IMG/VR virus record: IMGVR_UViG_3300008339_007645
Location: 1-21,834 of that record
Source: a virus
Direction: 5' to 3' (one strand)
Length of the DNA: 21,834 nucleotides
Positions 2,932 to 7,827 of this stretch are shown piece by piece. Numbering within the stretch: the stretch's first letter is position 1; each line of letters starts with the position of its first letter. Both the position numbers and the translations under genes were made by a program. The notes below the pieces were generated by a model that saw only the letters and a program-made list of their open reading frames with translations, was not told the origin of the DNA and ran no database searches.

Positions 2932-2971
2932 CACCCACGGCTGGGCTCGAACCAGCGACCGACCGCTTAGA
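2932..2971 (-). pseudogene. 3' half of a tRNA gene (T-arm, acceptor strand, half of the anticodon loop)
   Basis: Read leftward: loop remnant TCTAA (2971-2967), anticodon-stem strand GCGGT, 5-nt variable loop CGGTC, a perfect T-arm GCTGG-TTCGAGC-CCAGC (2956-2940), acceptor strand CGTGGGT (2939-2933) and discriminator G (2932). A 5' half would need ACCGC and ACCCACG on this strand. Neither occurs up to the intact tRNA at 3448. The loop remnant TCTAA matches that of the neighbouring tRNA-Arg(UCU), so an Arg tRNA is the best guess. The fragment begins inside the anticodon loop and its TAA is the stop codon of the HNH gene. It could be a tRNA cut by insertion of that gene, the 3' exon of an interrupted tRNA, or an attP-type tRNA end. 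Confidence 0.75.
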
Positions 2972-3428
2972 TCTTAGGTAATACGCCAGACTTCGCACAA
3001 TTACTACGATACGCCTCAACATCAAAAACTTCATTAACAGTATGTTTAATTAAACTATTATACGAAATACCTGTAGCAGATTGAGCTTCTCTGCACGTTT
3101 TATACACGACGCCGTTAATAATCCACTTCTTACGCCTATTTAATGCCGAGTTTAAATGTACTGAACGTGAATCCCAGTAGTTATCTTTATTACTTCCGGC
3201 ACAAAGGTGCGAAGGATTAACACACCGACAATTATGACAAAGGTGCCTAACTAAAACTGAAGATTCAATAAAACCGAAGTGGAGATAATATGAATATCTG
3301 TGTGCGAGCCAATAACGTTTATTAACCATAAGCTGACCGTAGCCAGCACTATTTGTACTCTTTTGCCAAACCCAACACTCAGACTCTGAAGATACTTTTA
3401 CAGAAGATAAAAGACGTTCCAAAGACAT
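2967..3428 (-). CDS. HNH homing endonuclease (HNH_3 type) with NUMOD-like C-terminal domain
   Basis: 153 residues, ATG at 3428. The N-terminal part has the HNH_3-type lead-in C-W-x-W (18-21) and a G-Y-G motif, then R-H-L-C-x-N-x-R-C-V-N-P-S-H-L at 61-75. His62 is the expected general base, Asn71 and His74 complete the HNH, and Cys64 and Cys69 can bind structural zinc. Asn83 fits the last N of the motif. Residues about 102-130 (INGVVYKTCREAQSATG and onward) resemble the NUMOD1/IENR1 DNA-binding repeat found in homing endonucleases. The gene lies in the 20-nt gap after an intact tRNA-Arg, and its stop codon is part of a half-tRNA, so it probably inserted into or between phage tRNA genes. There is no Shine-Dalgarno. 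A TATAAT sits only a few bases before the ATG. The family call is firm and activity is unknown. Confidence 0.88.
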   Translation of the reverse strand: MSLERLLSSVKVSSESECWVWQKSTNSAGYGQLMVNKRYWLAHRYSYYLHFGFIESSVLVRHLCHNCRCVNPSHLCAGSNKDNYWDSRSVHLNSALNRRKKWIINGVVYKTCREAQSATGISYNSLIKHTVNEVFDVEAYRSNCAKSGVLPKI

Positions 3429-3447
3429 ACAAATTATATAGTGTAAA

Positions 3448-3520
3448 CACGCTCGGAGGGATTCGAACCCCCATGAGGCATCTTAGAAGGATGCTGCCTA
3501 ATCCATTCGGCCACGAGCGC
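3448..3520 (-). tRNA. tRNA-Arg (UCU anticodon)
   Basis: A full cloverleaf can be drawn on the minus strand: acceptor GCGCTCG/CGAGCGT (one G-T pair), D-arm GGCC...GGC, anticodon stem GCATC/GATGC around loop CTTCTAA (anticodon TCT), variable loop CTCAT, and T-arm GGGGG-TTCGAAT-CCCTC. The discriminator is G. CCA is not encoded (GTTTAC follows). UCU reads AGA and, by wobble, AGG codons. A phage would carry this tRNA to supplement a host poor in it. It is transcribed in the same direction as, and 20 nt before, the HNH gene. Confidence 0.95.
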
Positions 3521-3583
3521 ATAACTGTAGCTAAACAAATCGCGCACAAGACACGACGAGCTAACTGCAGCGAGACAAACAGC

Positions 3584-3948: not shown

Positions 3949-4029
3949 TAGTGACCCCCAGGTTTGAGCTTCCGTGGAGAGGCTTAGGAGGTGTTACTGG
4001 TTAAACTTTAGCCAAAAACCTAACGCATT

Positions 4030-4586: not shown

Positions 4587-4711
4587 GGGGGGGGGGTGCC
4601 TGAGTTATTTATAAACGCGTGCGTGCGCGTGGGCGCGTGCGTGTGTGCGTGCGTGTGCCCGCATGTGTGCGTGTGTGCGCGTTACATACGCGGGTGCGTG
4701 TGCGTGTGCGC
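4587..4711. repeat. Ten-G run followed by ~98 bp of alternating purine/pyrimidine (Z-DNA-prone)
   Basis: Ten consecutive Gs at 4587-4596. From about 4614 to 4711 the sequence is almost entirely alternating GT/GC/AC steps with only a few phase breaks, the sequence class that adopts left-handed Z-DNA under negative supercoiling. Open frames over it give Val/Cys/Ala/Arg repeats and are not genes. It lies in the region between the leftward and rightward blocks, where a supercoil-sensitive element or replication feature is plausible. Confidence 0.8.
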
Positions 4712-4719
4712 AGTTCCTT

Positions 4720-5120
4720 CCCTGCCCTTGCCCCAACCCCATGGGAGTGTGCCAATCGGCAAACCGTCACAAGCTTGCGGAACGGGGGATCCTGCTGTGA
4801 TCAAACTGGGCACAAGCCGATCGGGGAAGCCGAGAGGCCAGACATAGGACCGCAGTCGCGACGACCGTGGCCCGTTGGCGTGTAGACCTAGCGTCCGCAG
4901 AAAGTATTCCTTCGGGGAGAGATTGCGGGTGGCCGGTATGAAACCAACGTGGCCGCGTAGCGATATGCGTAACCCCCCTGAGGCTAGTAGCCAGACAGAG
5001 GACATCGGAACTCCGACTAACGACCCTCTGCGCACTAGAACCCTCCGCTCACCCGGTTTGGCCTGCGTGTCAAGCTAAGGGAAGCCTGAGGCTAGTGTCT
5101 TGCCCGAAAGGCCCTTACGT
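4720..5120. other. GC-rich gene-free stretch with many hairpins; candidate large noncoding RNA
   Basis: No credible gene. Pairings visible by eye include TGCC-AATC-GGCA (about 4751-4762), GGCT-AGT-AGCC (about 4983-4993), and CAGAGG...CCTCTG enclosing TCGG-AACT-CCGA (about 4996-5030). A three-way junction is also possible: AAGG (5077-5080) with CCTT (5113-5116) around AGCC-TGA-GGCT and GCC-CGAAA-GGC. The 12-mer CCTGAGGCTAGT is repeated exactly at 4977-4988 and 5085-5096. It is richer in GC than its surroundings and lies downstream of a promoter-like sequence. Giant phage RNAs such as GOLLD and ROOL also occur in such gene-poor, tRNA-near places, but I cannot show homology. Confidence 0.4.
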
Positions 5121-5143
5121 TGCGTCCGTTAGTTACATTAACC

Positions 5144-5417
5144 CTATACTGTCCGCGTATAGTTTAGAGGGGCAAACGTAGGTTCTACTTTACATGGAAC
5201 TGATTTTATCATCCCGGATTATACGTTAGGCTTTGTAAGTTTAATGTAACTTCAATACGCTACTGTCAGCGAGCACAATGTATCTACATTGTCAGCGTGC
5301 AGGTTAGTTACAGTGGCACACTGTACCTATAGCTAACTGGTTTGGTTATTGTAACCACGCCGGTCTGCATTGTTTCCCACTGAGCGGTAGTCTCACGATG
5401 GCGAGACAATGTATCTA
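5144..5417. repeat. Cluster of inverted repeats and ACAATGTATCTA iterons
   Basis: Five perfect inverted repeats occur in 270 bp: CTATAC/GTATAG (5144-5162), ACAATGTA-TC-TACATTGT (5275-5292), TACAGTG-GCA-CACTGTA (5309-5325), TGGTTA-TTG-TAACCA (5343-5357) and GTCTC/GAGAC (5390-5407). The 12-mer ACAATGTATCTA is repeated at 5275-5286 and 5406-5417, and TACATTGTC at 5285-5293 and 5514-5522. No gene overlaps. Such a density of dyads and direct repeats suits an origin or multi-operator control region, or several hairpins of a leader RNA. Confidence 0.6.
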
Positions 5418-5522
5418 AGCCTAGGTAACTGTGTGATCTGTAGTTAATCTGTGCGCTGATTATGTTTCACGCATACTGTCAGGCTGACTCTTTATGGGGG
5501 GCCTGATTAAATGTACATTGTC

Positions 5523-5601
5523 GGCAGACTGGATCATTCTTTGATCATGCATTGATCCTTTGTGATCATGACGCTATCCTTCCAACTGTATCTAGTCTGC
5601 C
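5523..5601. promoter_or_regulatory. Phased GATC array inside a 12-bp inverted repeat
   Basis: GATC occurs at 5532, 5543, 5554 and 5564, spaced 11, 11 and 10 bp, so all four face the same side of the helix. The array is enclosed by GGCAGACTGGAT (5523-5534) and ATCTAGTCTGCC with an extra A at its left (5590-5601), which pair over 12 bp with one G-T. GATCA-TGCAT-TGATC forms a dyad within it. TTGATC (5553-5558) and TATCCT (5575-5580), 16 bp apart, could be a promoter for the small-gene block, putting the array over its -35 region. Possible roles are a repressor operator, a methylation-sensitive switch, or part of an origin. Confidence 0.5.
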
Positions 5602-5604
5602 TAC

Positions 5605-5660
5605 ATTGATTCTCTCCCGCAGGATGTTTCATACATCTTGCCTGAGGGATTCACCCTCAC
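5605..5660 (+). ncRNA. Structured RNA element, copy A (two hairpins)
   Basis: Starts with ATTGATTCTCTCCCG. Hairpin 1 is GCAGGATGT-TTCAT-ACATCTTGC (9 bp, one G-T), and hairpin 2 is TGAGGG-ATTCA-CCCTCA. Copy B at 6057-6110 keeps the flanks and hairpin 2 exactly but has a different hairpin-1 stem that still pairs perfectly, so the structure rather than the sequence is conserved. The element ends 31 nt before the ATG of a 26-codon gene, with GGTGA just before that ATG. It is likely a cis-acting leader element. I do not match it to a known riboswitch. Confidence 0.7.
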
Positions 5661-5691
5661 AAATCCACTTTGCATTAACAGGTGATTCATC

Positions 5692-5772
5692 ATGACTGCC
5701 AAGCAAATCGAAGCCATTGCACGTAAAGCTGCGGGCCTTCAGCGTAAGCAAGCGGCCAAACTTCCCCGCTGA
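5692..5772 (+). CDS. Short basic peptide (26 aa) downstream of RNA element A
   Basis: ATG 5692 to TGA 5770-5772, with AGGTGA six nt before the ATG. The peptide is Lys/Arg/Ala/Gln-rich (MTAKQIEAIARKAAGLQRKQ, then AAKLPR), likely one amphipathic basic helix. It is the first frame after structured RNA element A. It might be a real small protein that binds nucleic acid, or a leader peptide whose translation is controlled by the element. The good ribosome site, unusual in this block, argues that it is translated. Confidence 0.6.
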   Translation: MTAKQIEAIARKAAGLQRKQAAKLPR

Positions 5773-5777
5773 TCTAT

Positions 5778-5786
5778 AACTAACCC
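5778..5786 (+). repeat. AACTAACC intergenic motif, site 1
   Basis: AACTAACCC lies just after the stop of the 26-codon gene and 25 nt before ATG 5803. The same motif recurs at 6399-6407, 6958-6966, 7212-7220 and 7833-7841, always after a stop codon, and 24-25 nt before the next ATG in the first four cases. TAACTAA gives stops in two frames. It could be a processing site, a translation element or a stop spacer. Confidence 0.65.
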
Positions 5787-5802
5787 ATCGCAACTTAATC
5801 TC

Positions 5803-6057
5803 ATGAACTACCGCGCTCCTATTGTTGTCGATGATGTCATCAATGATGACGTTGCAAATCTACTGACTGATGCACAATGGCGTTGGTTTGCGATTCAATC
5901 CACGCGGCTCAATAAGTCTGTTCGGGATTTGATTCTGCAAATGAAACCTATGGTTGAGCAGATCAATGATGAGTCAAATGAAGTTTATCTGTTTGGTTAT
6001 CTGCCTAACTGCAATCTGTATGGTTGCGTTAGACCGGACGGATCTTCTCACACTTAA
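5803..6057 (+). CDS. Hypothetical small phage protein (84 aa)
   Basis: ATG 5803 to TAA 6055-6057. The leader from the AACTAACCC motif to the ATG has no Shine-Dalgarno. The N-terminal part is acidic (VVDDVINDDVANLL), the middle helical with aromatic residues (LTDAQWRWFAIQ), and the C-terminus has two Cys in a short beta-like stretch (YLPNCNLYGCV). The stretch LTD-x-Q followed by R-W is also seen in the protein at 6658, possibly by common descent. No membrane segment. Function unknown. The final A of its stop codon is the first base of RNA element B. Confidence 0.7.
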   Translation: MNYRAPIVVDDVINDDVANLLTDAQWRWFAIQSTRLNKSVRDLILQMKPMVEQINDESNEVYLFGYLPNCNLYGCVRPDGSSHT

Positions 6058-6110
6058 TTGATTCTCTCCCGGTGGGATTATGTATCCCACCCTGAGGGAT
6101 TCACCCTCAC
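6057..6110 (+). ncRNA. Structured RNA element, copy B (two hairpins)
   Basis: ATTGATTCTCTCCCG, then hairpin 1 GGTGGGAT-TATGT-ATCCCACC (8 perfect pairs), then hairpin 2 TGAGGG-ATTCA-CCCTCA, identical to copy A. Hairpin 1 differs from copy A at most stem positions on both strands, so the changes are compensatory. Downstream, CCAGC (6124-6128) can pair with GCTGG (6135-6139), which overlaps the GGTGA ribosome site of the next gene (ATG 6148). Translation could therefore be gated. Confidence 0.7.
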
Positions 6111-6147
6111 TTGTTGTTAGCTGCCAGCTCAATCGCTGGTGAATGTT

Positions 6148-6393
6148 ATGACCATGTGGCCCAGTGAAGTTGCGCAACTGTGCAAGGAATACACCGGCAA
6201 GGTGTACATCCGCCGCGAACGTATCAACCAAGGGGGATACATTCGGGGTGGTGTTTACTTTGGTTGTGGTGCGCCTTTGTATTATGTGCAGGATGAAGAT
6301 GGATTGTGGGATGACTACATCCGCGCATCCGATCGTGATGACGCTGTAGCTATTGTGCGCCAACGTTATCCGATAGCACAGATCAAACGCTGA
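6148..6393 (+). CDS. Hypothetical small protein downstream of RNA element B (81 aa)
   Basis: I choose ATG 6148 because GGTGA (6138-6142) lies 5 nt upstream, the same arrangement as the gene after element A. A GTG at 6139 would place the ribosome site inside the gene. The protein begins MTMWPSEVAQLC and has a basic patch (VYIRRERINQGG), a Gly/Tyr-rich beta-like middle (GGVYFGCGAPLYYVQDEDG) and a helical C-terminus. It looks like a small globular alpha/beta protein with no membrane segment. Family not recognised. TGA is followed within 5 nt by the AACTAACCC motif. Confidence 0.7.
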   Translation: MTMWPSEVAQLCKEYTGKVYIRRERINQGGYIRGGVYFGCGAPLYYVQDEDGLWDDYIRASDRDDAVAIVRQRYPIAQIKR

Positions 6394-6398
6394 CTTTT

Positions 6399-6407
6399 AA
6401 CTAACCC
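6399..6407 (+). repeat. AACTAACC intergenic motif, site 2
   Basis: AACTAACCC 5 nt after a TGA stop and 25 nt before ATG 6424. The leader between them is A/C-rich with no Shine-Dalgarno. Confidence 0.65.
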
Positions 6408-7459: not shown

Positions 7460-7491
7460 GCCTCACACTGTATAGTGTGGGGCTTTCATGT
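7460..7491 (+). terminator. Hairpin terminator
   Basis: GCCTCACACT (7460-7469) pairs with AGTGTGGGGC (7474-7483) over 10 bp (one G-T) around GTAT, followed by TTTCATGT. The tail is short on U. It ends the first part of the small-gene block, just before the first gene with a full AGGAGG ribosome site. Confidence 0.55.
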
Positions 7492-7521
7492 CACATTATC
7501 ACTCACAGGAGGATTGTCACA

Positions 7522-7827
7522 GTGACCCTAACGATCAAGACTAACAACAAGCCACGGCAGACTGTACCGGGTTTTGTGTTGTTCAACAATCAAGCTGTGC
7601 GCTCACAGTTTGACTTCCTCACGGATGAGGAATTCCGTGATGAGTCGTTCGTTAAATACCACGGCTGGTGGTATTCAATGGGAGACTTTCTGTGCGTATC
7701 TAATAAGTACGATCCCGACTTTAAGGGCTGGGATGGATACCATAGCGACAGTTATTTCAGCGGCGTACTTATGAAGTGGGCCGATGAGTCCGGCGAGGAA
7801 GTAATCATGGGCCGTTACTATTCCTGA
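7522..7827 (+). CDS. Hypothetical protein with strong ribosome site (101 aa)
   Basis: I place the start at GTG 7522 because AGGAGG (7507-7512) lies 9 nt upstream. The longer frame from 7477 would begin inside the terminator hairpin. The mature protein has a basic beginning (LTIKTNNKPRQ), then an acidic, aromatic-rich region (FLTDEEFRDESFV, HGWWYSMGDFLCV, FKGWDGYHSDSYF). It is soluble, with no obvious metal site. Family not recognised. TGA is followed by the AACTAACCT motif and a recurrent hairpin. Confidence 0.75.
   Translation: MTLTIKTNNKPRQTVPGFVLFNNQAVRSQFDFLTDEEFRDESFVKYHGWWYSMGDFLCVSNKYDPDFKGWDGYHSDSYFSGVLMKWADESGEEVIMGRYYS

Follow-up and report, generated by a model that had tools for sequence, protein, structure and literature searches.

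A structured RNA element absent from Rfam, with two possible helices that have one strand in common, in uncultured phages related to a Synechococcus phage

The window, i.e. the whole stretch of 21,834 nucleotides of viral DNA that was analysed, contains two copies of a short element, each upstream of a small ORF. Three strands (S1, S2 and S3) and an inner hairpin (hairpin 1) are distinguished in each copy; the coordinates are collected in Table 1. Both copies were found at the positions, and with the hairpin 1 stems and 5-nt loops, given for them in an earlier note on this DNA, and the flank and the second hairpin were, as described there, of the same sequence in copy 1 and copy 2. The 18-mer CTGAGGGATTCACCCTCA occurs only twice in the window, both times at the element copies, as compared with 0.02 occurrences expected in shuffled sequences. 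The small gene and the GGTGA motif that the note placed downstream of each copy were likewise present; the distance from the second hairpin to the downstream ATG was 32 nt in one copy and 38 nt in the other. The 26-codon ORF downstream of copy 1 was also observed 3′ of the element in loci L003/L126.

Table 1. Positions of the two element copies and adjoining features in the window
Feature	Position	Strand	Remarks
Copy 1, UGA at the 5′ edge of the element	5607-5609	+	Ends a 13-codon ORF (5568-5609), which is not conserved
Copy 1, strand S1 GAUUCUCUC	5608-5616	+	U5610 is the position of the maintained mismatch
Copy 1, hairpin 1, GCAGGATGT-TTCAT-ACATCTTGC	5619-5641	+	
Copy 1, strand S2 GAGGGAUUC	5644-5652	+	Partner is S1 (helix P1) or S3 (hairpin 2)
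Copy 1, strand S3 CCCUC	5654-5658	+	Hairpin 2 is 5643-5659
Copy 1, downstream 26-codon ORF MTAKQIEAIARKAAGLQRKQAAKLPR	5692-5772	+	SD AGGTGA at 5680
Copy 2, TAA of the upstream gene (6055-6057), then UGA of the element (6059-6061)	6055-6061	+	
Copy 2, strand S1 GAUUCUCUC	6060-6068	+	
Copy 2, hairpin 1, GGTGGGAT-TATGT-ATCCCACC	6071-6091	+	
Copy 2, strand S2 GAGGGAUUC	6094-6102	+	
Copy 2, strand S3 CCCUC	6104-6108	+	Hairpin 2 is 6093-6109, followed by CTTGTTGTTA; scored terminator-like
Third hairpin CCAGC/GCTGG	6124-6142	+	SD GGTGA (6138-6142) at the 3′ arm; restricted to the phage group of the window
81-codon ORF downstream of copy 2	6148-6393	+	Function unknown

The third hairpin, whose 3′ arm bears the SD, was observed 3′ of the element not only in the window but also in loci L129, L131, L154, L204, L026 and L003. 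Its arms vary between copies (CCAGC/GCTGG, CTCAC/GTGAG, CCCGTC/GGCGGG), while the pairing is retained. Another intergenic motif, TTAACTAACCCAAC, recurs between small genes at window positions 5776, 6397, 6956 and 7831; when up to three mismatches were allowed, 7 matches were obtained in the window versus 1.6 expected. Further upstream, a tRNA-Arg (tct) at 3447-3521 (-) adjoins an HNH endonuclease gene at 2967-3428 (-), and a match to the abiF RNA family lies at 3954-3991 (-), with a score of 38.2 against a gathering score of 37 and with non-standard pairs in its stem. A low-complexity stretch rich in CAC/GTG (4596-4770) is situated within a region of about 1.5 kb without clear genes.

In folding calculations each copy was more stable than 200 of 200 shuffles (z = -5.0 and -4.6). 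The minimum-energy fold of both copies was a single long hairpin, formed by pairing of the left flank GAUUCUCUC with GAGGGAUUC around hairpin 1. The two successive hairpins proposed in the earlier note were thus not obtained as the fold, as pairing of the left flank with GAGGGA excludes the second one. The identical flanks were present as the note had said; that they are the strands of an outer helix (P1, S1 with S2), which encloses hairpin 1, had been overlooked.

Further members were collected by several routes. An exact pattern of the flanks led to 7 further viral contigs and a looser pattern to 43 stretches. Loci fetched via the downstream gene family, a route independent of the RNA, contained more divergent copies in the same place. 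A covariance-model search of the kind suggested earlier, with only hairpin 1 paired, recovered variant copies that none of the patterns had specified. About 98 distinct element sequences were collected, all from viral contigs, with one to five copies per contig; contigs of 78-87 kb still contained just one or two. Matches in L118, L120, L122, L124 and L125 were discarded, as they scored 15.7 and resembled chance coding sequence. An exact-pattern scan of 84,980 bacterial and archaeal genomes revealed no family member. With the looser pattern, 34 matches were obtained in 257 Gb of such genomes; all of them lacked the family's hairpin 1, and their number was at about chance level. A host-borne element was therefore rejected, and the 34 matches constitute a negative control for the looser pattern.

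The carriers are a group of uncultured water-dwelling phages. GenBank phages gave no DNA match to the element, and none was detectable in Synechococcus phage S-EIV1 or in stretches of four other phages with common flanking genes. S-EIV1 is the nearest cultured relative (terminase 53% identity, primase 34%), and since it has no detectable copy of the element itself, the host of the window's phage is one that we infer. In the searches made, the family was encountered solely in uncultured phage lineages that are relatives of a Synechococcus phage.

Rfam 15 covariance models gave no match up to E = 5 in window 5400-6300. At the gathering score, the window and seven other loci contained only tRNA, abiF and Phage_DGR matches, all of them elsewhere. 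A known Rfam family, which the earlier note had named as a refutation, was thus found neither in gathering-score nor in permissive searches. The latter also gave no match to the glutamine riboswitches (glnA, Downstream-peptide), in agreement with the note, although these have in common with the element the setting in cyanobacteria or cyanophages and a short ORF, here downstream of copy 1. The structured RNA motifs wcaG, manA and PhotoRC-II have been described from cyanophages and marine samples (PMC2864571). These precede metabolic or photosynthesis genes, whereas the element precedes small early genes and an SSB-like gene, and none of the three matched it in the Rfam searches. No description of the element was found in a literature search, whose reach mostly did not extend to subscription journals. 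As judged from sequence, the two window copies are members of an RNA family absent from Rfam; the family is solid, its mechanism is not. The earlier proposal of a new, covarying structured RNA was thereby borne out, while the local duplication it described proved to be part of a widespread phage family.

In the alignment, 98.9% of hairpin 1 cells were able to pair, the covariation score was 1.164 versus 0.266 in shuffled alignments, and all six tested pairs changed on both sides. When P1 and hairpin 1 were considered together in 63 sequences, 99.9% were paired and 8 of 14 pairs had changed on both sides, while slid registers reduced pairing to 32-61%. Copies with a broken hairpin 1, the other refutation named beforehand, thus do not occur, 98.9-99.9% of cells being paired. 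For the cleanest test, GA, CTCTCCC, CTGAGGG and TC were the only fixed letters, and hairpin 1 and positions 4, 5, 47 and 48 were left free; two scans with free hairpin 1 letters yielded 68 distinct matches, and hairpin 1 was present in all 68. Most P1 pairs are invariant, including a U.G wobble in the core, but pair 5-47 varies (UA 40, CG 14, GC 5, AU 2, UG 2 and AC 5 among the 68 matches). Beside it, mismatch 4.48 never formed a pair in the 63 aligned sequences and was pyrimidine-pyrimidine in 68 of 68 scan matches. Because parts of the P1 core were fixed in the scan patterns, some of its invariance stems from ascertainment; CUCUC and GAGGG were nonetheless retained in loci that had been retrieved through protein relationship. 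On the coding strand, 58 G.U but only 2 A.C combinations were counted in hairpin 1 of the 98 sequences, and 16 of the 98 loops were cUUCGg. Both observations indicate a sense-strand RNA and would be unexpected for a DNA hairpin or for the opposite strand. By comparative evidence, hairpin 1 and the enclosing P1 are conserved as an RNA structure.

The second hairpin (hairpin 2) is formed by the same GAGGG of S2 paired with the downstream CCCUC of S3, so that P1 and hairpin 2 are mutually exclusive. That hairpin is identical in both window copies, as noted earlier, but its competition with the outer helix had been missed. CCCTC was found no more than 18 nt from S2 in 68 of 80 elements, compared with 3.5 in shuffles, and two copies (L029:10125 and L114:2565) have retained S3 despite a hairpin inserted between S2 and S3. 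In computed energies, the median difference between the two states was 1.9 kcal/mol in favour of P1, which won in 70 of 78 cases. Since the GAGGG core of S2 is invariant, the S2:S3 core allows no covariation test; at the one testable edge position, S2 position 47 against S3, covariation was not significant (p = 0.06) and is not claimed. In AT-rich and mid-GC contigs, the 8 nt after S3 contained a mean of 4.1 T, as compared with 2.3 later on, and at least 5 T were present in 39 of 85 such copies but in none of 17 GC-rich copies. As hairpin 2 is short and the GC-rich contigs are without a U-rich stretch, it is not clearly a terminator. A triple helix of CUCCC on GAGGG-CCCUC (S1.S2-S3) was considered and rejected, because the variants CTCAA, CTCAC and CTCCT break the triplex and keep P1.

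The copies are placed between early genes, with 16-48 nt (median 29) from S3 to the next start codon. Where a gene ends just upstream, the first bases of the element are also part of that gene's stop codon in 62 of 86 copies (56 UGA, 6 UAG), so that a terminating ribosome would cover S1; this arrangement had been missed in the earlier note. The overlap could also be an economy of space. For about 29 copies no gene end lies directly upstream, and in only some of these does a short ORF end on the element; a leader peptide for copy 1 (5568-5609) was rejected, as it is not conserved in L126. In two contigs (G004 and G012) the first copy is situated at the 5′ end of an early replication operon, ahead of polA (DNA polymerase), VWA and MoxR genes. 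Coherent target genes that might hint at the ligand of a riboswitch were not found: the downstream genes are unrelated and mostly of unknown function, one being SSB-like just under the Pfam cut-off and one carrying DUF7222.

Just upstream of the first copy, window 5532-5568 contains GATC(A) tandem repeats with a spacing of 10-11 bp (GATC at 5532, 5543, 5554 and 5564), and such repeats also precede about 25 first-in-operon copies on other contigs. The array is iteron-like, perhaps the site of a promoter regulator or a replication origin. The gene at window 7477-7827 is a homologue of one that, in about 30 related loci, has the element in front of it; upstream of the window's homologue the element is absent and a different hairpin, CCTCACACT/AGTGTGGGG, was found.

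The earlier suggestion of a cis-regulatory or processing element agrees with a structured RNA before genes, while a regulatory role is something we infer from sequence. It is quite possible, if short of an even chance, that the element, in the sense orientation within early phage transcripts, acts in cis as a bistable, attenuator-like switch. With S1 free, P1 would form, and both S3 and the pyrimidine-rich sequence that precedes the next ribosome site would be left single-stranded. With S1 masked, be it by a ribosome that terminates on the upstream gene or by a bound protein, S2 would pair with S3; the resulting hairpin 2, just ahead of the next gene, might alter how that gene is transcribed or translated, or its stability. 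P1 is weakened by the U.G wobble, which never varies, and by the pyrimidine mismatch, and a balance between the two states would thereby be preserved. The abundance of U behind S3 in the AT-rich and the mid-GC contigs would fit attenuation. That S1, S2, S3 or the loop of hairpin 2 directly masks the SD or the start codon was not supported: in constrained folding the fold state had no effect on the predicted accessibility of either, and complementarity of S3 and the hairpin 2 loop to their own RBS was not significant when RBS partners were permuted.

In ribosome-controlled attenuators, such as the leaders of amino-acid operons, a middle strand pairs either way and the hairpin of the third strand forms when the first is masked. 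The element appears to have a similar arrangement, with a strand beside an ORF stop codon, a middle strand with two partners and a third-strand hairpin. Two exclusive potential helices with one common strand were found, the exclusivity following from sequence, and an ORF ends at the first strand in the 62 intergenic copies mentioned above but not in most first-in-operon copies. Attenuators differ in that a leader peptide is encoded upstream, where the element usually follows an ordinary gene; the element is, moreover, repeated and situated between cistrons, and as a terminator its hairpin 2 is weak at best. In its fullest form, the switch would be a family of attenuators between cistrons, each sensing whether translation of the preceding gene has just been completed and adjusting the early gene that follows; they would have been copied along the operon, and their flawed helix would balance the folds. 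This we regard as unlikely to hold as a whole. Ribosome sensing is hardest to reconcile with the copies that no gene precedes, for which a protein ligand would be the better explanation.

A protein ligand is the basis of a somewhat unlikely alternative, an operator at which a phage or host RNA-binding protein would recognise P1 (CUCUC/GAGGG with its U.G wobble and pyrimidine mismatch) and repress or stabilise early mRNAs, with S3 as an accessory or competitor. The core of P1 does not vary among the 63 sequences, although the helix would tolerate other base pairs, and the mismatch is retained without exception, both being typical of sequence-specific recognition; unrelated downstream genes are also what a common regulator would have. 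However, no common candidate regulator was found among the compared contigs, which are incomplete genomes, and an operator alone leaves the retention of CCCUC at a floating distance unexplained.

An RNA acting on RNA polymerase without a protein partner, by which early transcription would pass terminators, is distinctly unlikely. The precedent is the put RNA of phage HK022, of about 70 nt and two stem-loops and located downstream of early promoters (PMC9378689). It acts via the beta-prime zinc-binding domain of RNA polymerase. The element is of similar size, likewise belongs to a phage early transcript, could form two stem-loops (in the hairpin 2 state) and opens the early operon with its first copies, as in G004 and G012; no sigma-70-type promoter was found in window 5000-6400. 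In contrast to put RNA, P1 encloses hairpin 1 and excludes hairpin 2, the element is repeated between genes, and the phages belong to another host group. For antitermination, as many as five copies at intervals of a few hundred bases would be redundant, and put does not predict the stop-codon overlap. Membership in neither class is claimed; the logic of the element resembles that of attenuators and its setting that of put RNA.

A processing or stability hairpin between cistrons, serving as an RNase III site or as a 5′ or 3′ stabiliser of mRNA, would agree with a long, imperfect, intergenic hairpin directly after stop codons and with stable cUUCGg loops, but is improbable, because generic cleavage needs neither strong conservation of primary sequence nor a retained S3. 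A DNA-level site (single-strand hairpin, cruciform, recombination site or replication signal), to which the GATC array adjoining first copies and resembling a binding or origin region might point, is very improbable given the tolerance of G.U but not A.C (58 versus 2), the UUCG tetraloops and the position on the coding strand just before start codons.

The covariation is strong enough for certainty on the structure, and the maintained mismatch represents an unusually clean case of selection against base pairing. Together with the overlap of stop codons, the common-strand design of the putative switch provides a specific, testable hypothesis on how the order of early gene expression may be set in these phages.
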